Below, piece after piece: positions 20,711 to 35,415 of a DNA stretch of 64,000 bases. Source of the DNA: Mesorhizobium sp. Lineage in GTDB: Bacteria > Pseudomonadota > Alphaproteobacteria > Rhizobiales > Rhizobiaceae. Made by a program: the position numbers and the translations under genes. A model generated the notes under the pieces. It was not told where the DNA came from and did not search any database. It was given only the letters and a program-made list of their open reading frames with translations. Every line of letters starts with the position of its first letter. Within the stretch, counting starts at the first letter, position 1. The DNA is taken from assembly GCA_004020875.1 (NCBI GenBank), contig SAPZ01000014.1, forward strand, positions 89,571 through 153,570. Direction: 5' to 3'.

Positions 20711-21372
20711 CGGCGTTCTCCCCGGTAGTCGTCCAGCGCGCCGATATCGACCGAATCGAACCGTTCGCGGATGCGGAACAGGAAGACGCCGATGACGATG
20801 AAGGCGATCAGGATCGAGAAGGCGACGCTGATCTCGACGACTAACGGCATGCCCTTGGCGCCCGTGGCGGCCAGCACCAGCCCATTCTCCAACGACATGA
20901 AGCCGACGACCTGGCTGACGGCGTTGCGCCTTGTCACCATCACCAGCAGCCCCAGCAGGATGATCGACAGCGCGAAGGCGAGGTCCTCGCGGGCGAGCGG
21001 GTCGGCCTCCGGCGTCACCCGAAGCATCAGCACCATGGAGAGCGTCACCAGCCCGATGCCGGCAAGCATGGTCAGACCGATGCCGACCGCCGTCTCGATA
21101 TCGCGGTGGATGCCGAGCCGCTGGATGATGCGATGCAGCCCGACGGGAATGACGATCGCCTTGAAGACCAGCGCGATTGCCGCGGTGATGTAGAGGTGAT
21201 GCGCATCCTGGATATAGGCCTGCCAGGCGACCGAAAGCGCGAGCACGACGGCATGCAGCGCAAAGACGTTGATCAGCGCGAACAGCCGGTCCTGGTAGAG
21301 CATCATGAAGGAGATCAGCACCAGGCTGCCGGCGAGCAGATGGGCGATGTCGAAGGTGAGACCGTTCATCAC
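20707..21372 (-). CDS. hyfE: HyfE-like membrane subunit
   Basis: A 221-residue membrane protein of the HyfE family, with a NuoK/MrpC-like portion and about six to seven membrane segments. Visible marks are LAGSLVLISFMMLYQDRLFALIN at the N-terminus, VFKAIVIPVGLHRIIQRLGI, and GFMSLENGLVLAATGAKGMP, which carries the conserved membrane Glu of NuoK-like subunits. ATGA overlaps tie it to hyfC upstream and hyfF downstream. Confidence 0.9.
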   Translation of the reverse strand: MMNGLTFDIAHLLAGSLVLISFMMLYQDRLFALINVFALHAVVLALSVAWQAYIQDAHHLYITAAIALVFKAIVIPVGLHRIIQRLGIHRDIETAVGIGLTMLAGIGLVTLSMVLMLRVTPEADPLAREDLAFALSIILLGLLVMVTRRNAVSQVVGFMSLENGLVLAATGAKGMPLVVEISVAFSILIAFIVIGVFLFRIRERFDSVDIGALDDYRGERR

Positions 21373-22319
21373 AGGCTCCGCGAGACGAACAGCAACAGCG
21401 TGCCGAGCAGCGCCAGCATCAGCGCCGCGCCCAGGAAGTCCGGCACGCGGAAGACACGCATCTTGGCGACCGCCGTCTCGAACACGGCAAGCAGGATGGC
21501 GAGCACCGTGAGCTTGCAGAGATAGGCGGCCGCGCCGATGGCCAGCGATTTCGGCCCGGTCCCCCCGCTGTCCAGCCCCCAGGGTAGGAAGACGCAGGAG
21601 ATCAGCGACATGTAGAGCAGCAGCTTGAGGAAGGTGGCGAGCTCGATCATCGCCAGATGGCGGCCGGAATACTCCAGGATCATTGCCTCATGCACCATGG
21701 TGAGCTCCAGATGCGTGGCCGGATTGTCGACCGGTATGCGGGCATTCTCGGCGATCGCCACCATAACCATGGCAATCAGCGACATGCCGAGCGACACCCG
21801 CAGTCCGACCTGCGGCGATCCCATGAAGGCGGCGACCGTCGAAAGCTGCGTGGCGCCGGCCAGCAGCGCCAGGCTGAACACGATGAGCAGCATCGCCGGT
21901 TCGGCCAGCGACGCGATCATCACCTCGCGGCTGGCGCCGAGGCCGCCGAAGCTGGTGCCGACATCCATCCCGGCCAGTGCCTGGAAGAAGCGGGCGCTGC
22001 CGAGCAGCGCCACGATGACGATGAGGTCCGCGGTCCAGCTGAATTCGAGGCCGGTAGCGAAGGTCGGAACGAGCGCCGCCGCAACCCAGGTGGCGGCGAA
22101 GATCAGATAGGGCGTTACGCGGAACAGCCAGGACGCATTGTCCGCCAGCACGACCTCCTTGCGCATCAGCCTGACGAGGTCGCGATAGGGCTGGATCAGC
22201 GAGGGTCCCTGCCGCCTGACCAGCCTTGCCTTCACCTTGCGCACGAAGCCGATCAGCAGCGGTGCCAGCAAAAGCACCGAAAGCATCTGCGCGCCCTGCA
22301 CGGCCAACTGCGCGATCAT
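21369..22319 (-). CDS. hyfC: HyfC/NuoH-like membrane subunit
   Basis: A 316-residue membrane protein of the NuoH/HycD/HyfC family, the quinone-side anchor subunit that links the peripheral arm to the antiporter subunits. Typical segments are KARLVRRQGPSLIQPYRDL (the Q-x-G-P-x-x-x-Q-P-Y-x-D signature), GMDVGTSFGGLGASREVM and MVAIAENARIPVDNPATHLE followed by LTMVHEAMILEYSGR. The chosen ATG 22319 gives an ATGA overlap with hyfB like the other junctions here; an ATG two codons earlier (22325) is also possible. The frame runs further upstream only through hyfB in another frame. Confidence 0.92.
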   Translation of the reverse strand: MIAQLAVQGAQMLSVLLLAPLLIGFVRKVKARLVRRQGPSLIQPYRDLVRLMRKEVVLADNASWLFRVTPYLIFAATWVAAALVPTFATGLEFSWTADLIVIVALLGSARFFQALAGMDVGTSFGGLGASREVMIASLAEPAMLLIVFSLALLAGATQLSTVAAFMGSPQVGLRVSLGMSLIAMVMVAIAENARIPVDNPATHLELTMVHEAMILEYSGRHLAMIELATFLKLLLYMSLISCVFLPWGLDSGGTGPKSLAIGAAAYLCKLTVLAILLAVFETAVAKMRVFRVPDFLGAALMLALLGTLLLFVSRSL

Positions 22320-24331
22320 GGCCATAGAGCGAGCACCAGAAGCAGGATGATGAGGTAGAGGAAGACCAGCGTCAGGTAGCGGCGGATGGTCAGGAACTGC
22401 AGCTGGTTCAGCCGCTCGGTGGCGAAACCGATCGCGCCGGTGATCGGCTGGTAGAAGACCTCCCAGGCCACATCGTGCATCTCCACCTTGAGTCGCGCCG
22501 GCTCGAGGGCGCCTGGCGCCGGCATCTTCACCGTCTCGCGCGAGCGGAACGCGAAGCCGCCGAAGACGCGGCGAATAGGCTGCGCGAAGCTGACCGCCGT
22601 GTATTGCGCGGCTGGCACCGCGTCCGTGAAGCCGCACCCCCAAGCAATGCCCCGGCGCAGCGCGTGCGAGGCGAAGCGGTGAATGAAGAAGGCCGCGAGC
22701 GACGCCGAGATGGTGATGAAGACGAAGACCAGCAGGCCGTTATAGGAGCTGCGGCTCTCGGCGATCGGCACGATCGACAGCCAGGGCTGCGCCATCTGCA
22801 CCGGCATGCGCTCGCCGACGAGTGGAAGCGTTACCGTCGACAGGCTGTCGATGACGAAGCCTGGCAGGATGCCGGCGAGCAGGCAGAAGGCGGCAAGCAC
22901 GGCCATCGCGGCCAGCGACCAGCGATCGACTTCGTGTGCGCGTTCCACCGCCACCGACCGTGCCCGGCCAAGGAAGGTGATGCCGAATGCCTTGACGAAG
23001 CAGGCCGCGGCCAGTGCGGCCGAGAGCGCCAGCATGCCGCCGACCGCGGGCACCATGACCTTCAGTCCCCATTGCGGCAGCTCTGGGCTGCGCAATATGG
23101 CCTGGAAGACCAGCCATTCGGAGGCAAAGCCGTTGAAGGGCGGCAGCGCCGAGATCGAGACGCAGCCGATGAGGAAGACGAAGCTGGTCACCGGCAGGCG
23201 ATGGATGAGGCCGCCGAGCTTTTCCATGTCGCGCTCGCCGGTTGCCGTCAGCACGGCGCCGGCGCCGAAGAACAGCAGGCTCTTGAAGAAGGAATGGTTG
23301 AGCACGTGGAAGAGCGCCGCGGTGAAGGCCAGCGCGGCGGCCGACGGCATGCCGTTCGCCTTGAAGGCCAGCGCAAGGCCGAGGCTTGCGAAGATGACGC
23401 CGATATTCTCGATGGTCGAATAGGCAAGCAGCCGTTTGAGGTCCTTTTCCATCAGCGCGTGCAGGATGCCCAGCACCGCCGTCACGCCGCCGATGAGAAG
23501 CACCGCCACGCCCGACCACCATGCCGGCTCGCCAAGCAGGTCGAACACCACGCGGACGAAGCCATAGAGGGCCACCTTCGTCATGATGCCGCTCATCAGC
23601 GCCGAGACATGGCTGGGTGCCGCCGGATGGGCAAGCGGCAGCCAGGCATGCAGCGGCACGAGGCCAGCCTTGGAGCCGGCGCCGAGCAGCATGAGAACCA
23701 GCACCGCGCCGGCGGCGAACGGGCCGGGATGCGCCGTCCGCATCGCGTCGAACGCATAGGTTCCCGCCGGCCCGGCCAGCAGGCCGAAGGCAAGCAGCAG
23801 CGCCATCGTGCCGAAGCTTGCCATCACCAGGTAGATGTAGCCGGCGCGCCGGTTGGCCTCATCGCGGTGATGCGCCATGACCAGCGCCCAGGAGGCGAGC
23901 GACATGAACTCCCAGGACAACAGGAAGCTGAAGGCGTCGTTGGCCAGCACCACGAGGTTCATGCCGGCGAGGAAGGCGGGATAGAATGGCAGAACCCGAT
24001 GCGGCTGGGATTCATGCCGGCCATAACCGAGACCGTAGAGGCTGGTGATCGTGCCGCCCAGATTGACGACGACAAGAAAGAACGCCGACAGGCCGTCGAG
24101 CCGGAACCGGGCGCCTGTCCAGGGCAGGCCGAGCGGCAAGGTGGCGGAGGCCTCGCCGGGGTTACCGGCGAGATGGCCGGCAGCAGTCGCGAGCAGTACG
24201 GCTGAAATCACAAGCGTCGCGCCATAGACCAGTCGAGTCGCGGCGGCGAGCCGGCTGGCGGCCGCAGCCATTATGGCTGTCGCCAAGAACGCGGCAGGAC
24301 CGCACAACAGAAGGGGGACGGTCGAATTCAC
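22316..24331 (-). CDS. hyfB: HyfB-like large antiporter-type membrane subunit
   Basis: A 671-residue membrane protein of the NuoL-like HyfB/HycC family with about 16 membrane segments. Conserved marks are LLSWEFMSLASWALVMAHH (TM Glu), GAGSKAGLVPLHAWLPLAHP (TM Lys) and LAYSTIENIGVIFASLG. The length beyond a 14-TM core includes the C-terminal extension expected for HyfB. It starts inside the stop of the XRE regulator gene (ATGA, 24328-24331) and overlaps hyfC. It probably forms the distal ion-translocating module of the complex. Confidence 0.92.
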   Translation of the reverse strand: MNSTVPLLLCGPAAFLATAIMAAAASRLAAATRLVYGATLVISAVLLATAAGHLAGNPGEASATLPLGLPWTGARFRLDGLSAFFLVVVNLGGTITSLYGLGYGRHESQPHRVLPFYPAFLAGMNLVVLANDAFSFLLSWEFMSLASWALVMAHHRDEANRRAGYIYLVMASFGTMALLLAFGLLAGPAGTYAFDAMRTAHPGPFAAGAVLVLMLLGAGSKAGLVPLHAWLPLAHPAAPSHVSALMSGIMTKVALYGFVRVVFDLLGEPAWWSGVAVLLIGGVTAVLGILHALMEKDLKRLLAYSTIENIGVIFASLGLALAFKANGMPSAAALAFTAALFHVLNHSFFKSLLFFGAGAVLTATGERDMEKLGGLIHRLPVTSFVFLIGCVSISALPPFNGFASEWLVFQAILRSPELPQWGLKVMVPAVGGMLALSAALAAACFVKAFGITFLGRARSVAVERAHEVDRWSLAAMAVLAAFCLLAGILPGFVIDSLSTVTLPLVGERMPVQMAQPWLSIVPIAESRSSYNGLLVFVFITISASLAAFFIHRFASHALRRGIAWGCGFTDAVPAAQYTAVSFAQPIRRVFGGFAFRSRETVKMPAPGALEPARLKVEMHDVAWEVFYQPITGAIGFATERLNQLQFLTIRRYLTLVFLYLIILLLVLALWP

Positions 24332-24639
24332 GGCTGGCTCCCGCCGGTTTCGACCTCGCCGCCATCGGGTTCAGACGCCTTGGCGAGATCGAAGCCAGCC
24401 TTCAGCCGCACGCCGCGCCCGCCGCCCTGGCTGGTCGCTCCTTCCCCGATCAGCTCGATGCCGGAGATCTCGAGCGCCGCGATCAGCTTCATCAGCGAAT
24501 CGACATTGCCCCTTATGATCGAGCCGCTGGCTTCCATGCGCTGGATCGTCGGCACCGACAGGCCGGACAATTCGGCAAGCCGGCGCTGATCGATCCCGAG
24601 CAGCGATCTGGCTGCGCGCAATTGCGGTGCGGTTATCAC
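24328..24639 (-). CDS. XRE-family HTH regulator, first gene of the Hyf-like operon
   Basis: A 103-residue small DNA-binding protein. The Cro/CI-type helix-turn-helix occupies residues about 4-57 (QLRAARSLLGIDQRRLAELS then GLSVPTIQRMEAS). A Gly-rich and acidic tail without known domain follows. Its stop overlaps the hyfB start, so the regulator and the membrane complex are co-transcribed. An inverted repeat flanks a -35-like hexamer about 60-90 bases upstream, which suggests autoregulation. The signal it responds to is not evident. Confidence 0.85.
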   Translation of the reverse strand: MITAPQLRAARSLLGIDQRRLAELSGLSVPTIQRMEASGSIIRGNVDSLMKLIAALEISGIELIGEGATSQGGGRGVRLKAGFDLAKASEPDGGEVETGGSQP

Positions 24640-24698
24640 CGAGCACTCTCTCGTTCAGGTCTGAGGTATCAGGTCTCGGTGCTACAGCCTACATTAAA

Positions 24699-24732
24699 AT
24701 GTTCTATCGTCAAGGATTGATGTGTAGAACAT
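24699..24732 (-). promoter_or_regulatory. Inverted repeat and promoter region of the XRE-Hyf operon
   Basis: ATGTTCTA (24699-24706) and TAGAACAT (24725-24732) are exact inverted copies 18 bases apart. Between them, on the minus strand, lies TTGACG (24713-24708), a good -35; the -10 is weak. A dimer or dimer pair on the two arms would cover the promoter. The XRE protein encoded next is the natural candidate ligand. Confidence 0.5.
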
Positions 24733-24842
24733 CTATGTTGATGCCGCGACAGTGTGGACCGAGGGTGCGCAGAACCCCTGGCCAGATACCGCACCCCACC
24801 TGTCCAGCCGGTGTTTAGAGTGCCGCGAAGCGGAAGGGCTCC

Positions 24843-25502
24843 TCAGCGCTCCACGGCTGCATAAGCCAGGGCCAGGATGCACGGGGAGGTGGCAAAACGG
24901 ACGGCCAGACGACGGCCCCACGAAGTGACTGCTTCACCCTTTTCGAAATCGACCGCGATGTCCTCAAAACCCAACACGCGACCGTCGAGCGGGAACGATG
25001 CCTTGTAGGCCGCCTCCTTGACCGCGAACAGGATACGGCCGCCCAGATTTGGATCGAGATCACCCAGACGATCCTCCGATGCGGCAACCACGGCCCGGAG
25101 ATCGTCGGGCAATGGCAAGGCGGGCTCGATGTCGACGCCGACGCTTCGCAGCGCGTCGGATCGCGCGATGACTGCCACGGCCATCGTGTCGTCATGCGCG
25201 ATCGAGCCGACAAGGCCGGCCGGCCAGATTGGGTTTCCCAGTTGGCCGCGCAATATCGCGCGGTTCACGCATCCTCGACGCCTCAGCAATTCATGCGCGA
25301 TGTGGCGGCCTGCCCCCGTGGCGGCGCGCGCCCCGGGTGCACGCGTCGCCATGGAAGCGCCTTCCGCAGGCAGGATGTATTGTTCGTCGCCGGCGAGGAT
25401 ATGCCGGCAGCCGCCGCTCAGGCCGGGCGGCGCGAGGCCGGCCAATGCCTGCTCGACGGTATGTTGGATGCTCGCCGACATCCCTTGCGGCCGGGTGTTC
25501 AA
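24843..25502 (-). CDS. Sfp/EntD-type 4'-phosphopantetheinyl transferase
   Basis: A 219-residue enzyme that moves phosphopantetheine from CoA to the Ser of a carrier domain. Motifs: GSIAHDD (residues 99-105), the Mg-binding GVDIE (122-126) and FAVKEAAYK (159-167), all in the order of the EntD/Sfp class. It is the last gene of the operon NRPS-GNAT-PPTase, four bases after the GNAT stop, so its most likely target is Ser584 of the NRPS next door. An ATG at 25481 is an alternative start. Confidence 0.92.
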   Translation of the reverse strand: MNTRPQGMSASIQHTVEQALAGLAPPGLSGGCRHILAGDEQYILPAEGASMATRAPGARAATGAGRHIAHELLRRRGCVNRAILRGQLGNPIWPAGLVGSIAHDDTMAVAVIARSDALRSVGVDIEPALPLPDDLRAVVAASEDRLGDLDPNLGGRILFAVKEAAYKASFPLDGRVLGFEDIAVDFEKGEAVTSWGRRLAVRFATSPCILALAYAAVER

Positions 25503-25506
25503 CGCT

Positions 25507-25977
25507 CTATCCGCCCAGTTCGAGCACGGCGATCATCTCGTCGTCCTCGTCCGGTCCTTGCTCGACGAAACCGAAGCCGGCGTAAAGCCGGCGCGCCGCC
25601 TCGTTCTCCTGTTCATAACAGATCAAAACGCGGCGGACGTGGCCGCGCTTCGCGATCTCTTCCAGCACCTTGGCAACAGCGGCGCGGCCGAAGCCTTTGC
25701 CTTGCTCCCGGCGGTCGATCATGAAGCGATAGATGATCGCTTCGTCATCGTCGCCAAACGCGCTGTACATGAGGAATCCGACAACGCGCCCGGCGGAGAC
25801 CACGGCGCGGGCGATCGCCTCGTCATCCTGCTCGGCCTCCGCCAGCGATTCGGCGTTGGAGGCAACGTACTCCTGCTGTTCCGGTAACAGTTCGAGCGCC
25901 AGTATCGCCGCCCAGTTGTCCTTGCCGACAGGCTCCAGGGCAATCGGGCGGTCGCTGGTGCTGCCGCTGCGCGTCAC
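25507..25977 (-). CDS. GNAT-family N-acetyltransferase
   Basis: A 156-residue acetyl-CoA-dependent acetyltransferase. The CoA-binding signature RREQGKGFGRAA is at residues 89-100, and the C-terminal NEAARRLYAGFGFVEQG is the usual family end. Sequence character (LYAGFGF, strongly acidic) recalls spermine/spermidine and aminoglycoside acetyltransferases. It overlaps the NRPS stop by ATGA and precedes the PPTase. In a poly-basic-amino-acid operon it could acetylate the product or monomer for self-protection; that is inference. Confidence 0.87.
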   Translation of the reverse strand: MTRSGSTSDRPIALEPVGKDNWAAILALELLPEQQEYVASNAESLAEAEQDDEAIARAVVSAGRVVGFLMYSAFGDDDEAIIYRFMIDRREQGKGFGRAAVAKVLEEIAKRGHVRRVLICYEQENEAARRLYAGFGFVEQGPDEDDEMIAVLELGG

Positions 25978-28900
25978 GGGGCGTGCCCGACTTCCATCGC
26001 ACGGGCGTCGATCGGCGTCACCACGCCGTAGAGCTTCGCCGGGTTGCCGCGCCAGACCGTGTTCGGCTCCAGCACCTCGCCCTTCATGACGAAGCAGTCG
26101 ACGTCGGCCACGGACCCCTCGCCCATCACCACCGCGTAATGAACGAAGGCGGACGGCGCCAGGGTGCAGCCATTGCCGATGCGGATGTAGTCGGACTTGA
26201 ACGCGCCTTCCTCCAGCGAGTGCGGCTGGATCACGCAGCCTTCGTTGAGCGTCACGTCGTCGCCGATCTCCACCAGCGAGCGCTCGGTGATGATGCAGCC
26301 GCCGTCATAGAGGCGCAGCCCCACCTTCACGCCCAGCATGCGCAGGATCAGCGGCCGGAACGGGGTGCCGGTGAACAGGCTCATGATCGGCGAGTCCGAC
26401 AGCTTCCAGTGACGTTCGTGCCGCCAGAAAACCGGGTCGTAGATTGTCGCCATCCTGGGCTTCAGGCGGCGGAAGCCGAGGCTGGCTCGTTCGAGGAAGA
26501 TGTAGAACGGGATGCCGATCGCCGTGGTCAGCATCACTGCCACGAACAGTGCGGTCTGCCCCCACTCGGTATAGTAGTTAAGCGCGCGGTCCCAGATTGC
26601 CAGCGTCAGGAACAGGATCAGCCACTGCGCGGCCACGAACATCAGCGCGGTGACGAGATTGTGCAGGTTCTTCAGGGGCAGGCGGCGACTGCGCTCCTTG
26701 TCCGAGATCAACCCGAGAAGCTCCTTGTCGCGATTGACCATGCGCGGAATTTCGAACGGCGGCGAGCCCAGAAGCCCGACATTCTCGCGAATGGGGCCGT
26801 CCACCGGCACGTGGACCTTGGTCCCGAGCAGGCAATTGTCGCCGACGCGGGAATCCGGTGAATAGATGATGTTGTTGCCGAAGAAGTTGCGTTCGCCAAC
26901 CCGGGTATGCTCGAGCCGGAAGGAGTTGGCCGACTTCTGCATGTTCACCATGAACAGACCGTCCGACACCATTGTATGCGAACCGATCTCGCTCAGCTGC
27001 GGATTTTCATGCCGCTGGTTGGTACCGAAATTCGACCCGGTCTGATCCACCTCGTTCAGCTTCCAGCCGATGGCGCGTAGATAATAGACGACGGCGGAAC
27101 TGTCGCCGAACAGCACGTTCAGCAGCCGCACATTGCTGACCAGCTCCAGCATCGTTTGCAGCCAGTAGTGGAAGCCGTAGAGCGAATAGTTCCGGCCGGG
27201 CTTTAGCACGAGGTTGAACAGCCGCGGCACGATGGCCGCCAGCAGCACCCCGCCGATGACGAAGCCCGCCACCGTGACCGTGGTGCCGATTGCCACGATG
27301 CCGAGGGTCTCATCATAGTCGTCGCCGACATTTTCCCAGTAGCTGTGGAACAGAAGCGGGAACGGTGTGATGATGGCAAAAAGGATGAAGAGCTGGATCG
27401 CCTCGTAGATGGCGCGGCGCACCCGCGACAACGGGACGTTGGGCACTTTGCAGTAGTCCGCCTTGGTGGGGATCGCTGGCGAGCCGTGCCAGTGCTCTCC
27501 GGCCGGAACGATCTGCCCGCGATGCAGCGACGAAGCGTGACCGAGCTGGGCGCCATCGCCCATGCGTGTATCGATGTCGAGTGTCGACCCGACGCCGACA
27601 AAGGCGTTGTTGCCGATACTGACCGGCCCGGTATGGATGTAGCCGGCCTGCGCCCGAAAACCGAGGATCGTGGAGTCCTTGCGCAGGATCGAGTTGTCGC
27701 CGATGGTGATCAGGTCGGTGCAGACCGGAACGGCCCGGCACTCGACGACGGCGCGGCCGCCGAGCCGCGCGCCGAGCAGGCGCAGATAGAGGCTATAGAG
27801 CGGACTGCCGCGGAACAGCACGACCGGAGCGCTGCGGACCAGAGTCTTGACGATCCAGAATCGATAGTAACGCCAACCCCAGATCGGAAAGGTTTCGGCC
27901 TTCCAGCGGCCGACCAGCAGCCATTTGGCGGCGACGGCGAAGCCGCTCAATCCAAAGAACACGCCGGCGGACAGAAGAACGCAACGCAGATAAAGAGACA
28001 GCGGGTCGTCCAGGGCCTCATAGACCCAATTGAGGCCGTCATTGATCGCCCACAAAGCCACATAGCTGTAGACCGCGTAAAACAGCAGCTGGCCGAATCC
28101 CGTTGCCCAGATGGCAAGATTGGAGGCCCTGTGCGTCAGCATGGGCTCGCGCGCGGCAACCGCGGCCATCTGAGGTTCCCGCAGATGTTCGGCAAGCTTC
28201 GCTATCGTCGGGTGCAGGTAGATGTCGCGCATCGAGGTCGTCGACCAGGCCTTGCGCGAGCGGATGCGCGCGCAGAACCGCGCCATCAACAGCGAGTTCG
28301 CGCCGAGGTCGTCGAAGAAGTGGTCTTCGATGGAGATATCCTCGAATTTCAGCACGTCCGCCAGCGTCTCCACGAGGAACTTCTCGTCCTCGTTGCGCGG
28401 GTCGATCATCGCATGACCGGCGGCGACACGCGCGCTCGTCGGCTTTGGTAACTTCCTTAGGTCGACCTTGTTGGAAACGGTCATCGGGATCGCGGCCAAC
28501 TGCTCGAGATAGGCCGGAACCATGTAATCGGGCAGCCGTCGCTTCAGCTCCTGCACGAGAGTGGTGCGATCCACACCGTCACCGCCGCTTTTAGGAGCGT
28601 AATAGCCGACCAACTCCGTGCGCTCGGGTTCTATTTCCCAGGTCGTGACCGCCGCCTGCGCGATGCCTGGCTGGTCCAGCAGCACGGCCTCGATCTCGCC
28701 CAGCTCAATCCGGTAGCCGCGAATCTTGACCTGTGTGTCGATGCGTCCGTGGTATTCGATCTCGCCCCTGTCGTTGATCCGGCCAAGGTCTCCCGTACGA
28801 TAGATGCGGCCGCTGGGGTTGTTCGGCAGGCCGATGAAATCATGGATGAATTTCTCGTCGGTCAGCTCCGGCCGGTTGAGATAACCGACCGCAACGCCCA

Positions 28901-30044
28901 TGCCACCGATGCAGATTTCGCCCAACGCGTCGCCGCTCAGCACCTCTGGCTTTTTCGGGTCGAGGACTGCGATCGAATAAGTAGGCAGCGGCCTGCCGAT
29001 CGTCACCGGTTCGTCCGGTGTCAGCAAGGCCATGGTGGCGGTGACGGTCGCCTCCGTCGGGCCGTAGGTGTTCAGGATCTGGCGGCCGGGCTTCGCCCAC
29101 CGCACCACGAGCTTGTGAGAGCAGGCCTCGCCGCCGACAAGGATCGCGCGCAGGCTCGGCGCGTCGCTCTCGATCGACGACAGCAGCGTCGGGCTGCAGG
29201 CCATGCAGGTGATGTTGTGCTCGCGAAGGAAACTGGCCAGCTCCTCGCCCACCAACGGCTGCTGGCCGGGCGCCGGCACGACGGTGGCTCCGGCGGCGAA
29301 CGGCACCCAGATCTCCTCCGAAGAGAAGTCGAAGGCGATGGTCATGCCCTGGTACACGCGGTCGCCGGGCTGGTAGCCGTAGGACGCGGCGGCGACGCGG
29401 ATGAAATTACAGAAGCTCTGATGGGTGATGACCACGCCCTTGGGCTTGCCCGTGGTCCCCGACGTGTAGAGGATGTAGCAGGTCTGATCCTGGCCGCCGT
29501 CCGGCAAGGGTTCCGTTTCCGGCTGGAGCGCAATTTCGGACTCCGCCGAATCGATCGAGATATGCGGAACGGGCAGGCGCGCCACGCGCGCGGCATAACC
29601 GGAAACGCTGATCACCATCGTGACGTTGGCGTCCTCGATGATCATCACCATGCGGTCTTCGGGAAACGCAGTGGCCAAGGGCACGAATGCCGCCCCGGCC
29701 TTCATCACCGCAAGCACCGCGATGTAGGTTTCGGCGGAGCGGTCGAGCAAAAGACCAACCCTGTCGCCTGGCTTGACACCGCGCTCGATCAACAGATGCG
29801 CGAACTGGTTGGCGCGGCTGTTCAGCTCGCGATACGACCAGGGCCGACCGCCGGAGATGACCGCGGGCGCCGCGTCGAAGCGGCTCGCCAAGTCGCCGAA
29901 GAAGCGGTCCAGCCGCTCATGCGGCTCGCCTTTCTGGATGAAATCTGGCCCGATAAGGATCTGATCGCGCGACGGTGCTACGGTCGTTGCTTTAACCTGC
30001 CGAGAATTCTGCTTGCCGGGCTTGGTGGCTTCATTGAGAGACAT
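25974..30044 (-). CDS. Pls/PosA-type single-module NRPS with membrane and beta-helix C-terminus
   Basis: A 1356-residue membrane enzyme. The adenylation domain (about 40-530) has A3 LYTSGTTGKPKG (192-203), A4 FDFSSEEIW (238-246), A5 NTYGPTEATV (325-334), A7 YRTGDLGR (415-422) and A10 Lys526. The carrier domain (about 550-622) has LGANSLL with Ser584. The rest holds several membrane segments (starting near 645, 685, 890, 930, 1130, 1165) around left-handed beta-helix acyltransferase-like domains (about 755-860, 1040-1110, 1225-1340). There is no condensation or thioesterase domain. This is the layout of epsilon-poly-lysine synthetase (Pls), where the C-terminal domains link free monomers into a chain. 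It leads an operon with GNAT and PPTase genes. The monomer is not proven. Confidence 0.88.
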   Translation of the reverse strand: MSLNEATKPGKQNSRQVKATTVAPSRDQILIGPDFIQKGEPHERLDRFFGDLASRFDAAPAVISGGRPWSYRELNSRANQFAHLLIERGVKPGDRVGLLLDRSAETYIAVLAVMKAGAAFVPLATAFPEDRMVMIIEDANVTMVISVSGYAARVARLPVPHISIDSAESEIALQPETEPLPDGGQDQTCYILYTSGTTGKPKGVVITHQSFCNFIRVAAASYGYQPGDRVYQGMTIAFDFSSEEIWVPFAAGATVVPAPGQQPLVGEELASFLREHNITCMACSPTLLSSIESDAPSLRAILVGGEACSHKLVVRWAKPGRQILNTYGPTEATVTATMALLTPDEPVTIGRPLPTYSIAVLDPKKPEVLSGDALGEICIGGMGVAVGYLNRPELTDEKFIHDFIGLPNNPSGRIYRTGDLGRINDRGEIEYHGRIDTQVKIRGYRIELGEIEAVLLDQPGIAQAAVTTWEIEPERTELVGYYAPKSGGDGVDRTTLVQELKRRLPDYMVPAYLEQLAAIPMTVSNKVDLRKLPKPTSARVAAGHAMIDPRNEDEKFLVETLADVLKFEDISIEDHFFDDLGANSLLMARFCARIRSRKAWSTTSMRDIYLHPTIAKLAEHLREPQMAAVAAREPMLTHRASNLAIWATGFGQLLFYAVYSYVALWAINDGLNWVYEALDDPLSLYLRCVLLSAGVFFGLSGFAVAAKWLLVGRWKAETFPIWGWRYYRFWIVKTLVRSAPVVLFRGSPLYSLYLRLLGARLGGRAVVECRAVPVCTDLITIGDNSILRKDSTILGFRAQAGYIHTGPVSIGNNAFVGVGSTLDIDTRMGDGAQLGHASSLHRGQIVPAGEHWHGSPAIPTKADYCKVPNVPLSRVRRAIYEAIQLFILFAIITPFPLLFHSYWENVGDDYDETLGIVAIGTTVTVAGFVIGGVLLAAIVPRLFNLVLKPGRNYSLYGFHYWLQTMLELVSNVRLLNVLFGDSSAVVYYLRAIGWKLNEVDQTGSNFGTNQRHENPQLSEIGSHTMVSDGLFMVNMQKSANSFRLEHTRVGERNFFGNNIIYSPDSRVGDNCLLGTKVHVPVDGPIRENVGLLGSPPFEIPRMVNRDKELLGLISDKERSRRLPLKNLHNLVTALMFVAAQWLILFLTLAIWDRALNYYTEWGQTALFVAVMLTTAIGIPFYIFLERASLGFRRLKPRMATIYDPVFWRHERHWKLSDSPIMSLFTGTPFRPLILRMLGVKVGLRLYDGGCIITERSLVEIGDDVTLNEGCVIQPHSLEEGAFKSDYIRIGNGCTLAPSAFVHYAVVMGEGSVADVDCFVMKGEVLEPNTVWRGNPAKLYGVVTPIDARAMEVGHAP

Positions 30045-30270
30045 TGGGAACCTCGCGGGCTATCCGCCCGCAATACAGATTGGTGAAAAGACAAAAACTA
30101 GCGAAGTCTTACCAGGGATGCCTTCTTCGCGGCCGGTGGAATGGTCGTACCGCAGCGTATCGGACCGGGTGCTGGCCGACTTCAAGCCGGCCTATGCTGC
30201 TGCTCTGATGGCCGATCCGTGACGGTCGCGTCACTTCACGATGATTTGATAGGCCATGCCTCATGCGGCG

Positions 30271-31158
30271 TCAAACAGCGACGGCGCGGATATCGGCATT
30301 CTCGAGGCAGTACGGTGCGTAACGGAAATCGCGGAGGCTCACGACGAGGTCGTTGCGCCAGTTCAGGAGCATGAAACCACGCAACGCATTGTCCGCCTGC
30401 GGGTTGCGGATGAGGATCGCCGGCCGGGCCTCGACGAAGCCGAGCGACAACGCCCAATCGCCGAGGCGGTCGTAATTGCCGAAATAGGTCGAGGCTTCTT
30501 TCTTGCCGTTGAGGCGGGTGCGGTTGACAACGTCGACCTGGACGTCCTCGGCGATCAGCGCCCTGACCCCGTCGAAATCACGCGCGTTGAACAGGTCGAC
30601 ATAGCGGCGCAGCCGGCGCTCTTCTTCCGGTTCCAGTTTTGGCATTGCGACGTCGGCTGGCGCCGAAGCCAGCGCCTTCAATTCCGCCCGGCCGCGATGC
30701 AGTGCCGCCTTCGTGGCGGCAAGTGTCGCGCCCGTCAACTCGCGGGTCTCATGCAAGGTGAGACCAAGCACGTCTACGAGGATCACGGCACTGCGCTGCG
30801 CCGGCGTAAGCTGCATGAAACTGCGCAGGCTTGCCGCCGCCGCGAGCCGAACCTCCGCGTCGGCAGAGACATCTTCAATTCCGATCATATCGGCTTCGGT
30901 CATGCGCGAGCGCTCCCGCTGGCGGCGGCGCAAATGATCCTGCGCCGCGTTGTGGGCGATTCGGAACAGCCACTGCTCGAGGCGCTCGACGAGAGCACCG
31001 CCATCATGGGCGGCAAGCGCCTTCACCACCGTCTCCTGCACGATGTCCTCGCCCTCGATCACCGAGCCCGCCATGCGCGCGGCATAGCGGTGCAGTTTCG
31101 GGCGCAGGCCGATGAGCATGGCTTCAAGTTCCGCGCGGTCGAATTTCGCTGCGCTCAT
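30271..31158 (-). CDS. ECF sigma factor with C-terminal SnoaL-like domain
   Basis: A 295-residue sigma-70-family factor. Region 2 lies at about residues 8-80 (GEDIVQETVVKALAAHDGG, LFRIAHNAAQDHLRRR), region 4 at about 110-165 (LTPAQRSAVILVDVLGLTLHETRELTGATLAATKAALHR), and an NTF2/SnoaL-like tail at about 180-290 (YVDLFNARDFDGVRALIAED). Sigma factors of this build (ECF41-like) use the tail in place of an anti-sigma factor. ATG 31158 preceded by AAGAGG is preferred; an in-frame ATG exists at 31194. It is encoded 46 bases after a small protein that is probably its operon partner. Confidence 0.9.
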   Translation of the reverse strand: MSAAKFDRAELEAMLIGLRPKLHRYAARMAGSVIEGEDIVQETVVKALAAHDGGALVERLEQWLFRIAHNAAQDHLRRRQRERSRMTEADMIGIEDVSADAEVRLAAAASLRSFMQLTPAQRSAVILVDVLGLTLHETRELTGATLAATKAALHRGRAELKALASAPADVAMPKLEPEEERRLRRYVDLFNARDFDGVRALIAEDVQVDVVNRTRLNGKKEASTYFGNYDRLGDWALSLGFVEARPAILIRNPQADNALRGFMLLNWRNDLVVSLRDFRYAPYCLENADIRAVAV

Positions 31159-31204
31159 CGGCCTCTTTCTCTGGTTCGCCGGTTCGTGAGCCATGTCGCC
31201 CCGG

Positions 31205-31525
31205 TCAGGCCGGCACAGCCTCATCGGCTTTCGCCAGCATACGATAGTTGCCGACGATCTTCGCCGGCGATCTGGCAAACGGCGTCGAACGCCGAGTGGC
31301 GTGATCGGCGCCGAACGCCTTGAACGCGTCGAGTTCGGTCAGCGCCGAGCTGTCCTTGTCGTAACCGACGAGGTGGACGAACTCGCCATTCTCCAGTTCG
31401 AGCACCAGATAGCGCACCGATCGCGGCTGCCCCTCGTCCAGCGCCTCGAACACTTGTTCCACCAGCGCCCGGTTCTCGGCGATGCTGGCGTCCTTCACGC
31501 CGTAGCGGATCAGATTGTAGGTCAT
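31205..31525 (-). CDS. Small cytoplasmic protein beside ECF sigma factor, unknown function
   Basis: A 106-residue soluble protein starting MTYNLIRYGVKDASIAENRA. The pattern (beta strand, helix with ALVEQVFEALDEG, then the strands YLVLELENGEFVHLVGY) looks like a ferredoxin-fold dimeric alpha/beta barrel protein such as the ABM/EthD-like group, but I cannot name a family. ATG 31525 with GGAGACGACC before it is a better start than the ATG at 31552. It precedes the sigma gene on the same strand. Confidence 0.65.
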   Translation of the reverse strand: MTYNLIRYGVKDASIAENRALVEQVFEALDEGQPRSVRYLVLELENGEFVHLVGYDKDSSALTELDAFKAFGADHATRRSTPFARSPAKIVGNYRMLAKADEAVPA

Positions 31526-31621
31526 GGTCGTCTCCTGTTTGCGGGTCTGCATGAGGAAGACGTTCCATGAGCTCGAAAGGATTCCCGGGCGGGTTGCTAT
31601 CTTTCGATTTGTCTCGTGCGA

Positions 31622-32587
31622 TCAGCCGGCTCCGCCGATCATGGAGGCAATCGTGTCGTCGCCGGCAGATTGCGGCGGCATCCGGCCGCTGGCCAGCTCG
31701 ATCGACAGTCTGCACAAGGCTGCGTTGACTGGCGTCACCATGCCGTGCAGCCGCCCGAGCAGCACGATCTCGCCATTGAGGAAGTCGGTTTCGAGGGAGC
31801 CTGTCCCGCGCACGATGCTCTGCAGCGTCGACGACCCGACGCGCGTTCGGCCGGGAATGGTGGTTATGGTCAGTTCCTCGCGGGGCATCGCGTCGGTCTT
31901 GTCCCACGCGATTCCGGCCGCGGTCAGCACCGCTTCCGCCTCGGCGAGCGCCCTGGCATACCATTTCCGCTGAAGCTCGGTGTCCGCCAGCGCCGCATCG
32001 ATAATGTTGCGAAGATTGGACAGCAGCTTGCGGTATTTGCTGCTCATCACATTGTCCCTGCGGTCGACGATGAAGCCGGACGCACGGAGTATCCCGCGCA
32101 GTTTCTTGACCGCGTCGTCGGTTCCGGATGGATAGCGGCCGATATCGAAAGCGCCGATCTTTGGCGTGAAATAAGCCGCGACCTCGCCCGGCGTGTCGTA
32201 ATCGGCCGGCAGCATCACCGTCGCGCCATAGACATTGGCGAAGAAACGCAGGGCGAGCGGCTCGTTGGCGACGCCGTTCTGGAAGCAGAATATCGGCTGG
32301 GCGGAAACGCCTATCGCGTTGAGCCGCTGCAGCGCGCCCAGCGTATCGGGCGTTTTCATCGTCAGCAGCACGGCATCGTCCGGCCTGAACGAAATCTCCG
32401 CCGGGTCGGCATGGACGGGAAAATGCGCGGTCCTGGTGCCTTGCGGTGTGGAAAGCGACAGCCCAGACGCACGGATGGCATCGAGCTGCCTGCCGCGGGC
32501 GATGCCGACCACGTCATGTCCGGAGAAACTCAGCTGGGCCGCGATGGCGCCGCCGATCGCGCCGATTCCATAGACGATGATGCGCAT
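31622..32587 (-). CDS. Ketopantoate reductase-family oxidoreductase (ApbA/PanE-like)
   Basis: A 321-residue NAD(P)-dependent 2-dehydropantoate 2-reductase-like protein. The Rossmann motif GIGAIGGAIA is at residues 7-16, FCFQNGVANE is the catalytic-domain junction, and the C-terminal ApbA_C helices follow (KYRKLLSNLRNIIDAAL with the conserved Lys and Asn). Total length fits the family. Many bacteria carry several paralogues with unknown 2-keto substrates; without a pantothenate gene nearby I do not call it panE. It stands alone, followed 97 bases later by the small gene of the sigma operon. Confidence 0.88.
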   Translation of the reverse strand: MRIIVYGIGAIGGAIAAQLSFSGHDVVGIARGRQLDAIRASGLSLSTPQGTRTAHFPVHADPAEISFRPDDAVLLTMKTPDTLGALQRLNAIGVSAQPIFCFQNGVANEPLALRFFANVYGATVMLPADYDTPGEVAAYFTPKIGAFDIGRYPSGTDDAVKKLRGILRASGFIVDRRDNVMSSKYRKLLSNLRNIIDAALADTELQRKWYARALAEAEAVLTAAGIAWDKTDAMPREELTITTIPGRTRVGSSTLQSIVRGTGSLETDFLNGEIVLLGRLHGMVTPVNAALCRLSIELASGRMPPQSAGDDTIASMIGGAG

Positions 32588-32618
32588 GTCGTTCTCATAG
32601 CGATTGGAGTTCGTTCAC

Positions 32619-32682
32619 GAGAGCAATGCCGGGAAAAATGGGAGCTGTTTTCCGTGTGGAATTGCGTCAAACAAAACATAGG
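32619..32682 (+). repeat. Dispersed ~63-bp intergenic repeat, copy 3 (diverged)
   Basis: GAGCAATGCCGGGAAAAATG followed by TGTTTTCCGTGTGGAATTGC aligns with the copies at 55407 and 17668. After it, ATAGGGC (32678-32684) and GCCCTAT (32714-32720) form an inverted pair. It fills most of the gap between the reductase and the FAD-dehydrogenase genes. Confidence 0.6.
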
Positions 32683-32729
32683 GCCCTTCGCTGTTTCCGT
32701 GAAACGATGAAGCGCCCTATGTCCTCCGT

Positions 32730-34385
32730 TCACGCAATCGTGGCCGCGGCCGCCCGTCCGGCGCTGCGCCCCGAAAAGATGCATCCGCCGAGGAAGGTGC
32801 CTTCCAGCGCCGCATAGCCATGCACGCCGCCGCCGCCGAAGCCGGCTACCTCGCCGACCGCGTAGAGCCCCGGAACCGGCTGTCCGGCGGCATCGAGAAC
32901 GCGGCTGTCGAGGTCGGTCTCAAGCCCGCCCAGCGTCTTGCGGGTCAGGATATTGAGGCGCACCGCAATCAGCGGACCGTTTGCCGGATCGAGCATCTTG
33001 TGGGGTTTTGCCGTGCGGATCAGCTTGTCACCAAGATAGGCGCGGGCGCCGCGCAGCGCAGTGATCTGCGCGTCCTTGGAGAACGGGTTGTCGAGCTGCC
33101 TGTCGCGGGCGCGGATCTCGCGCTCGACCTGGGCGAGGTCCAGCAGTGGCTCGCCGCCGGCCAGCGCGTTCATGCCCGCCACCAGCTTCGAAAGATCGGT
33201 CTCGACGATGAAGTCTTCGCCTTTTTCCATGAAGGCTTTCACAGGACCGGGAATGCCTGATGTCGCGCGGCCCAGCACCTGCCGCCAGCTTTTGCCGGTG
33301 AGGTCCGGGTTCTGCTCCGAGCCCGACAGCGCAAATTCTTTCTGGATGATCTTCTTGGTCAGGATGAACCAGGAATAGTCGAAACCGGTGCTCATGATGT
33401 GGCTGAGCGTGGCCAAAGTGTCGAAGCCCGGATAGAGCGGCACCGGCAATCGGTTGCCGCGCGCGTCGAGCCACAGCGAGGAGGGGCCGGGCAGTATGCG
33501 GATCGCGTGCTCGGACCAGATCGGCGCCCAGTTCCTGATGCCCTCGACATAGTGCCACATGCGGTCGCGGTTGATGACCCTGCCCCCGGCAGCCTCGGTG
33601 ATCGCCAGCATGCGCCCGTCGACATGGTCGGGCACGCCGGTGATCATCCGATTGGGAGGCGCGCCCAGCCGCTCAGGCCAATTCTTGCGCACCAGCCCGT
33701 GATTGCCGCCGATGCCGCCGGAAGCGACGATCACCGCTTGCGCGCCAAGCTCGAACTCGCCGGCCACCATGCGCGAGCTCTTGCGGCCGCGTTCGACGCT
33801 GCTCGCCTCCAGCACGTCGCCGCGCACGCCGGTGACGGTATCGCCGGTGCGGATGATCTCGTTGACCCGGTGGCGGAACTTGAACTGCACGAGCCCGCGC
33901 TTCTCCGCCTCGCGCACGCGCAGCACGAACGGCTCGAGCACGCCGGGCCCGGTGCCCCAGGTGATGTGGAAGCGCGGCACCGAATTGCCGTGGCCTACGG
34001 CATTGCCGCCACCCCGCTCGGCCCAGCCGACCACGGGGAAGAATTTCAGCCCGCGCTCGATAAGCCAGGAACGCTTCTCGCCGGCGGCGAAGCCGACATA
34101 GGCTTCAGCCCATTTGCGCGGCCAGAAATCCTCCGGACGGTCGAAGGCGGCGGTGCCCATCCAGTCCTCGAGCGCGAGGTCGTGCGAATCGCGGATGCGT
34201 ATGCGCCGCTGCTCCGGCGAATCGACCAGGAATAGCCCGCCGAAGGACCAGAAGGCCTGGCCGCCCAGCGACTGCTCCGGCTCCTGATCGACGATGACGA
34301 TTTTCTTGCCGGCCTCCGCCAGCTCGGCCGCGGCGACGAGGCCCGCCAGCCCCGCGCCGACAATGATCACGTCCGCGTCAGCCAT
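32730..34385 (-). CDS. FAD-binding dehydrogenase (3-ketosteroid dehydrogenase/fumarate reductase-like)
   Basis: A 551-residue flavoprotein of the FAD_binding_2 family. The N-terminal dinucleotide motif VIIVGAGLAGLVAAAELAEA begins at residue 5 and is followed by the ribose-binding Asp/Glu end VDQEPEQ. An ASGGIGGN glycine stretch lies mid-protein and a second flavin-contact region GLYAVGEVAGFGGGGVHGY lies near the C-terminus. Start ATG 34385 is preceded by GGGAGGAAAA. The family oxidises or reduces C-C bonds of steroids and related rings; the real substrate is unknown. It follows a Gfo/Idh/MocA gene by 40 bases on the same strand. Confidence 0.88.
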   Translation of the reverse strand: MADADVIIVGAGLAGLVAAAELAEAGKKIVIVDQEPEQSLGGQAFWSFGGLFLVDSPEQRRIRIRDSHDLALEDWMGTAAFDRPEDFWPRKWAEAYVGFAAGEKRSWLIERGLKFFPVVGWAERGGGNAVGHGNSVPRFHITWGTGPGVLEPFVLRVREAEKRGLVQFKFRHRVNEIIRTGDTVTGVRGDVLEASSVERGRKSSRMVAGEFELGAQAVIVASGGIGGNHGLVRKNWPERLGAPPNRMITGVPDHVDGRMLAITEAAGGRVINRDRMWHYVEGIRNWAPIWSEHAIRILPGPSSLWLDARGNRLPVPLYPGFDTLATLSHIMSTGFDYSWFILTKKIIQKEFALSGSEQNPDLTGKSWRQVLGRATSGIPGPVKAFMEKGEDFIVETDLSKLVAGMNALAGGEPLLDLAQVEREIRARDRQLDNPFSKDAQITALRGARAYLGDKLIRTAKPHKMLDPANGPLIAVRLNILTRKTLGGLETDLDSRVLDAAGQPVPGLYAVGEVAGFGGGGVHGYAALEGTFLGGCIFSGRSAGRAAAATIA

Positions 34386-34425
34386 TTTTCCTCCCGGGAT
34401 GAGCCGGCAAACCTGCTCGGAAGCG

Positions 34426-35415
34426 TTAGACGGTCTCCCAGCCGTCCTTCTCGCCGGCGCGGAAGATGGCGTCGATGACCTTCTGGTTGAGCACCGATTC
34501 CTCCAGCGTGAAGACGCGGTCCTTGCCGCCCTGGGCGGCGCGCACAAAGGCCTCGCATTCCAGCCGGTATTGCTGCGTGCCGGGAAAGCGGAACACCTGC
34601 GCCTCGGTGTGGTTCTGGTTGTGCAGCTCGATGCGGTGGTGCTCGTAGAGCCCGGCATTGAACGGGCCGAAGACTTCGATGAAGCCTTTCTCGCCGTGGA
34701 ACACCATCACCTGGCGCGCCGCCATCTGCGTCGACAGATAGAAGGACAATTCGAAGTCGCCGAAATCGGCGCGAATCGAGGAGTAGATGTCGGTGCCGAA
34801 GGTCGTGTCGCGCTCGATCGTCGCCTGCACGCGCAGCGGCTCCTTGCCGGTCGAGAACCGCGTCGACACCGTTGGATAGACGCCGATATCGGGCAGCGCG
34901 CCGCCGCCGAGATCGAGCTTGTTGCGCATGTTATTGGGATCGACATTGTAATAGGAGAACGCGCCCTGCACGTGCCGCAGCCGGCCGATGGCACCGCTGG
35001 CGATGAGATCGCGCACCTTGATCCATTGCGGATGGTACACGACCATGAAGGCCTCGCAGACCAGCACATTCTTCTGGTCGCGCAGCTTGATCAACGGCGG
35101 GATGTCCTTGGCGTCGAGCGCGAGAGGCTTTTCCACCAGCACATGTTTTCCGGCCTCGATCGCCTTGGCCGTCCATTCGACATGCTGCGAGGTCGGCAGC
35201 GGGATGTAGACGCCGTCGACGTCCGGCGAGGCAAGCAGCTCCTCATAGGAGCCGAAGGCATGGCGGGCGCCGAAACGCTCGCCCACCACCTTGGCCTTCG
35301 ACAGATCGCGGCTGGCGATCGCCGACAGAATGCCGTTCTCCGAATCCACGATTGCCGGCAAAAGCTGCTCGCGGCCGATCTTCGCCGTCGACAGAACACC
35401 CCATCGGAACATCAC
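34426..35415 (-). CDS. Gfo/Idh/MocA-family NAD(P)-dependent oxidoreductase
   Basis: A 329-residue oxidoreductase acting on sugars or inositol-like compounds. The Rossmann region at the N-terminus ([20 protein letters not shown]), [20 protein letters not shown] and the family hallmark [10 protein letters not shown] (catalytic Lys) are present, followed by the beta-sheet domain. The substrate is not assignable. The gene is probably co-transcribed with the FAD-dehydrogenase gene downstream. A 372-base non-coding stretch with a palindromic repeat lies upstream. Confidence 0.92.

Follow-up and report, generated by a model that had tools for sequence, protein, structure and literature searches.

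We propose that a three-gene unit of Mesorhizobium sp., encoding a Pls/PosA-family synthetase (Pls), a GNAT N-acetyltransferase and a 4'-phosphopantetheinyl transferase (PPTase), builds a small diamino acid, most likely 2,4-diaminobutyrate (Dab), into a short cationic polymer with isopeptide links, a reading to which we assign a probability of about 0.6. The unit lies in a stretch of 64,000 nucleotides, referred to below as the window, and its three open reading frames run on the minus strand in the order Pls, GNAT, PPTase. The features are as follows.

25974..30044, minus strand: Pls/PosA-family synthetase, 1356 residues, with an adenylation (A) domain, a carrier (PCP) domain and a membrane terminal domain (TIGR02353; dN/dS)
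28467..29888, minus strand: adenylation domain, residues 53-526, code DFEALGTVTK (Pfam and code reading)
28182..28379, minus strand: carrier domain, residues 556-621, with the predicted phosphopantetheine site Ser584, codon 28295-28293 (Pfam)
26037..28091, minus strand: terminal domain of Pls, residues 652-1336, predicted to form three helix pairs and three left-handed beta-helix units (TIGR02353, structure model, hydropathy)
25507..25977, minus strand: GNAT N-acetyltransferase, 156 residues, GTG start (Pfam; kin to spermine/spermidine acetyltransferases)
24843..25502, minus strand: PptT-like PPTase, 219 residues counted from a TTG start (Pfam; matches to PptT structures)
30045..30270, minus strand: non-coding stretch 5' of Pls, likely the promoter region (block shared with the moved copies L043 and L052)

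A sequence-only reading of this DNA had described the genes as joined by ATGA or four-base spacing. The four-base gap between GNAT and PPTase holds if the TTG start at 25502 is correct, an in-frame ATG at 25481 being the alternative; the junction of Pls and GNAT is not ATGA but GTGA, in which the GTG start of GNAT overlaps the Pls stop. No sigma-70 consensus was found in 30045..30270. These 226 bases are common to L043 and L052, absent from the shared block of L049, which begins at 30047, and partly present in L054 and L060, where the block begins at 30094; because they are shared so unevenly among these loci, the position of the promoter can be given only roughly.

The neighbours were inspected from 21369 to 34658 of the window. 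The cassette is followed downstream by an HTH gene and by membrane genes resembling those of hydrogenase-4; its upstream side encodes an ECF-type sigma factor, a small protein without a match, a protein similar to 2-dehydropantoate-2-reductase, and an FAD-binding dehydrogenase. None of these was recognisable as an exporter or a peptidase, in keeping with the earlier remark that no exporter stands beside the operon. Between 21369 and 24639 the HTH gene overlaps the operon of hydrogenase-4-type membrane subunits that adjoins the cassette. In three related loci, the cassette matches the window as one block (30270-24861 in L052, 30338-24861 in L043 and 30047-24859 in L049) and the sigma-factor and hydrogenase-4 genes sit elsewhere, away from it. 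Because of this separation, we place the flanking genes outside the system.

The domain content of Pls is that of a single-module enzyme. Searches against Pfam (E 0.001) gave AMP-binding at residues 53-389 (277 bits), AMP-binding_C at residues 450-526 and PP-binding at residues 556-621, that is, one A domain and one carrier domain, with Ser584 being the serine within the DDLGANSLL motif of the latter; condensation and thioesterase families are absent from the five Pfam matches of the protein, so that the layout first read from the letters agrees with Pfam. Far from aligning only to unrelated acyltransferases, the C-terminal part matches TIGR02353, the "Pls/PosA family" model, at twice its cut-off (846 bits against 423.1) and over nearly its full length (model positions 6-695 of 695). 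Together with a PosA-like Asp and Glu in the pocket, this upholds the family first suggested, and by the sequence of its terminal domain and its layout the enzyme is assigned to the known Pls/PosA (CHPA synthetase) family. The A domain also aligns at 264 bits to that of epsilon-poly-L-lysine synthetase (7WEW), which has the same family membership and layout.

The membrane segments and left-handed beta-helices proposed for the terminal domain appear to be present as well. Hexapep scored 37.4 bits, above its Pfam cut-off of 27, and Hexapep_2 24.6 bits, below the same value; a hydropathy threshold of 1.6 picks up five of the six predicted membrane helices. An AlphaFold2 model of the domain, of modest quality (pLDDT 60.2, pTM 0.62, built from 10 aligned rows), has three units, each consisting of two long helices followed by short strands, and the three repeat units align with one another by profile (hhalign; E 2e-6, 7e-16 and 3e-5). 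When the domain was compared with solved structures, only pieces of beta-helix acyltransferases matched. The model appears to agree with the three-unit structure predicted for PosA, and is too weak to argue for a catalytic site. The nearest relatives of Pls are from Mesorhizobium, at 96% identity across 1356 residues. With a dN/dS of 0.08-0.11, Pls is therefore under purifying selection, as are GNAT (0.14-0.35) and PPTase (0.20-0.28), all computed against 7 of 22 close loci.

The identity of the monomer was approached through the A-domain pocket. Alignment to PheA at ten specificity-code positions, which we take to be the standard ones, gave D239, F240, E243, A282, L302, G304, T326, V334, T335 and K526. 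The pocket is thus acidic, with Asp in the first code position and Glu in the third, and carries Lys in the tenth. The same script returned DAWTIAAICK for PheA, as expected, and read the published PosA code DMEHNGTVSK in four relatives (L120, L121, L122 and L125).

In the portion of the PosA report that we draw on (PMC10522769), Asp217 and Glu221 of PosA are essential and serve the two amines of the substrate, and code position 2 sets the chain length, with Ala in the lysine enzyme, Met in the ornithine enzyme and Phe in the PDAP and PDAB enzymes. Since the window enzyme combines Phe at position 2 with the Asp/Glu pair, its substrate is likely a three- or four-carbon diamino acid, Dab or 2,3-diaminopropionate (Dap), and neither lysine nor ornithine. 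Family and pocket are still best read as pointing to a homopolymer built from a basic amino acid, as the sequence-only reading had it, and a small Dab or Dap monomer likely sharpens this reading. Nothing in the analysis pointed to a non-amino-acid substrate of the A domain, the other outcome that would have told against that reading.

Between these two monomers Dab is our best guess, because relatives with the code DFEC[LI]S[AV]VTK adjoin a Dab transaminase gene in six of eight loci (the eight being L063, L139, L140, L146, L149, L154, L155 and L162). The six linked loci come from two Skermanella, one Acidimicrobiales MAG, two Streptomyces and one Embleya, about four lineages by taxonomy; at the two Streptomyces loci and the Embleya locus an aspartate kinase gene follows. 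No Dab transaminase was seen beside Pls in L140, and L149, whose Pls is interrupted, has an aspartate-kinase fragment only. In the poly-D-Dab pathway, Dab transaminase and aspartate kinase are the enzyme types called PddC and PddD (PMC8225329, in part).

The window enzyme itself belongs to a code class of 38 loci (L039-L061, L112-L119, L136, L137, L138, L150 and L159-L161; the code of L118 is incomplete and L160 has Ile at position 8), and its code differs from the Dab-linked one at positions 4, 6 and 7. In none of the 38 do the fetched flanks, which are of unequal lengths, contain a Dab transaminase. The linked supply genes of PddA-like systems, transaminase and aspartate kinase, are absent at the cassette. 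Across the genus (146 genomes), 43 of the 81 genomes with Pls and 39 of the 65 that lack it encode a Dab transaminase (TIGR00709, E 1e-100); the two are not associated (Fisher p 0.50), and 38 of the Pls-bearing genomes are left without the transaminase at that threshold. The window's own genome has an EctB-type Dab transaminase on a different contig (630 bits against a cut-off of 552). Judged by eye, this gene (L163 6797-8053; G000, contig C35) has neighbours that resemble an ABC transporter, a LuxR-type gene and a GNAT gene, and no ectoine genes were recognised among them.

Dap is the main rival to Dab: the same type of enzyme would then make beta-poly-Dap, which we consider rather unlikely. 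PDAP and PDAB enzymes alike are reported to have Phe as the second residue of the code (PMC10522769), and the LGTVTK ending of the window code, unlike the LSAVTK or LSVVTK of the Dab-linked enzymes, is the same as in the Rhodococcus code DFEYLGTVTK, whose two fetched loci are without a Dab transaminase. Against Dap, an SbnA-type Dap synthase above cut-off was found in none of the 146 genomes, with lower-scoring homologues in 145, and the tree puts the window class, with Rhodoplanes, beside rows from Skermanella, Paenarthrobacter and Acidimicrobiales (the last on a long branch), among which Skermanella and Acidimicrobiales are Dab-linked. Telling against Dab, the Dab-linked Streptomyces rows group with Rhodococcus and S. 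cattleyicolor on a neighbouring branch, apart from the Dab-linked rows nearest to the window class. The tree left out PheA and 8 of 44 rows that were short, interrupted, divergent or outside the family (L142, L143, L144, L145, L146, L149, L151 and L158), and its rows should not be counted as species, some genomes contributing two loci (e.g., L056 and L117).

Some related loci have unusual neighbours. On two Rhodococcus plasmids (L141 11996-13968 and L156 13008-15001), Pls with the code DFEYLGTVTK is followed by a BPL-N protein and then by a membrane protein similar to heparan-alpha-glucosaminide N-acetyltransferase, a different acetyltransferase-like gene lying two genes after Pls. On two Skermanella plasmids (L139 12033-16169 and L162 12056-15601), ectB and Pls are followed by genes for a hypothetical protein, an S41 peptidase and a porin, which possibly serve processing or export. 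Three actinobacterial plasmid genes of 2.5-3.1 kb (L142, L143 and L145) are annotated Pls/PosA and are without a normal A domain; they may be decayed or may use an A domain in trans.

The two helper genes could also be assigned to families. The PPTase matches 4PPT_N (56 bits) and ACPS (26 bits), both above the Pfam cut-offs, and PptT structures at E 7e-23; the window's genome contains one other ACPS-family match and, at E 1e-5, no second match to the cassette PPTase. The nearest solved relatives of the GNAT, a likeness by sequence alone, are the spermine/spermidine acetyltransferases 2FL4 and 9DSB, so named by their depositors (E 6e-17 and 7e-17, next best 3e-4; 65 bits over residues 12-142). 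Because a polyamine-type acetyltransferase is co-inherited here with a polycation synthetase, we suggest that its substrate is either the monomer or the polymer; the kinship fits the "protection or tailoring" first ascribed to this gene and proves neither.

The co-inheritance is best seen across the genus. Pls (E 1e-100) was found in 81 of 146 genomes, at 82 loci. The Pls-bearing genomes fall into two score groups, one of 52 genomes and one of 29, and no genome belongs to both; the groups are score bands with few members placed on the tree. A GNAT match (E 1e-25) stands beside Pls in 79 of the 81 genomes; any such match is always beside Pls, and the 65 genomes without Pls have none. An adjacent PPTase match is present in all 81, two of them being partial or split (G450 and G002) and five more having an internal stop (G023, G489, G482, G510 and G514); one GNAT match also has an internal stop (G018). 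Beyond the genome set, sequence searches of named records gave 25 loci, and both helpers stand beside Pls in 23 of these, namely 22 close Mesorhizobium-type loci and Rhodoplanes, the exceptions being Rhizobium (L059) and Acidimicrobiales (L063). Among plasmid records, 54 matched and 25 were fetched; the Aureimonas, Phyllobacterium and Shinella loci and Rhizobium L150, described below, are from the fetched set. The three genes are inherited as a single cassette in the genus, and in some relatives the cassette is at other sites. The coupling of PPTase and GNAT to Pls, first proposed from this one locus, is therefore near-perfect in the genus, with either helper missing in some other genera.

Two genomes depart from the pattern in other ways. 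In G005 (Mesorhizobium; L118/L020) the Pls frame is interrupted, with an open frame of 990 residues, and GNAT and PPTase remain. G442 is the sole genome of the 146 with two Pls loci at E 1e-100 (contigs C25 and C8), and its GNAT and PPTase matches are at the C8 locus only.

Could the GNAT and PPTase be passengers with general roles, Pls alone being what matters? The GNAT is missing at three fetched Shinella loci that keep the PPTase, the PPTase at two Phyllobacterium loci that keep the GNAT, and both at two Rhizobium loci (L059 and L150); moreover, less similar PPTase-like genes occur in 15 genomes without Pls. The GNAT, missing also from 2 of the 81 Mesorhizobium genomes, is thus not essential. 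Nevertheless, the near-exclusive adjacency within the genus, and the preservation of the gene order in Rhodoplanes, with 48% and 46% identity, and, for all three genes, in Aureimonas, make the passenger reading improbable. Less probable still is the coupling of the activated diamino acid to another acceptor, such as a lipid, a polyamine or a cell-surface group, rather than to itself: the terminal-domain units do resemble acetyltransferases acting on other molecules and the cassette is without a precursor, export or release gene, but the family match covers nearly the whole model and the characterised members (Pls, PDAP synthetase, PddA and PosA, as described in the sources cited here) make homopolymers.

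Several known systems can be set beside the proposed polymer of a small diamino acid. PosA, the delta-poly-L-ornithine synthetase of Acinetobacter baumannii (PMC10522769), resembles the window enzyme in its A-PCP-terminal layout, in its pocket Asp and Glu and, as predicted for each enzyme, in having beta-helices and three pairs of helices, six in all; it differs in its code (DMEHNGTVSK against DFEALGTVTK) and in being a single-gene operon, whereas the window unit includes a GNAT and a PPTase. PddA, the gamma-poly-D-Dab synthetase of Streptoalloteichus hindustanus (PMC8225329), is, by description, likewise a single-module membrane enzyme, and its product is a cationic diamino-acid polymer as proposed here, but its pathway has a coupled Dab racemase, Dab transaminase and aspartate kinase, and the window cassette has none of these. 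The PDAP synthetase of Streptomyces albulus PD-1 (PMC4668381) shares the A-PCP arrangement and the membrane segments around three tandem soluble domains, and uses a small diamino acid, as predicted for the window Pls; its monomer is made in that organism by homologues of cysteine synthase and ornithine cyclodeaminase. The epsilon-poly-L-lysine synthetase has Ala at code position 2, for lysine, where the window enzyme has Phe. In open-licence PMC we found no published account of the cassette, the gene set, its product or a Mesorhizobium member.

On these comparisons, the synthesis of the diamino-acid polymer could proceed as follows. Ser584 would be armed by the PptT-like PPTase, as family and adjacency suggest. 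The A domain would adenylate the diamino acid, with Asp239 gripping the alpha-amine and Glu243 the amine of the side chain, and with Phe240 shortening the pocket, by extension from the structures and mutants of PosA (PMC10522769). The terminal domain, embedded in the membrane, would then receive the aminoacyl thioester, and its three beta-helix units, by analogy with the family, may link monomers iteratively via their side-chain amines. Finally, the polyamine-type GNAT might acetylate free amines of the monomer or polymer, for self-protection, capping or charge tuning.

It is worth considering, as a doubtful but larger possibility, that the product is a kind of polymer not yet isolated, a poly-Dab or poly-Dap partly acetylated by the GNAT so that the bacterium sets its charge, made by a PPTase-armed unit that is widespread and movable in plant-associated Mesorhizobium. 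The genus is known for legume symbiosis, and if the proposal is true, about half of the sampled Mesorhizobium species (81 of 146) would be equipped for the synthesis of a cationic polymer belonging to a class with known antimicrobial activity. The purpose of such polymers is called unclear in the abstract of one report (PMC9606270). With its own PPTase, the cassette would be handy for testing both the role of the GNAT and the purpose of the polymer.
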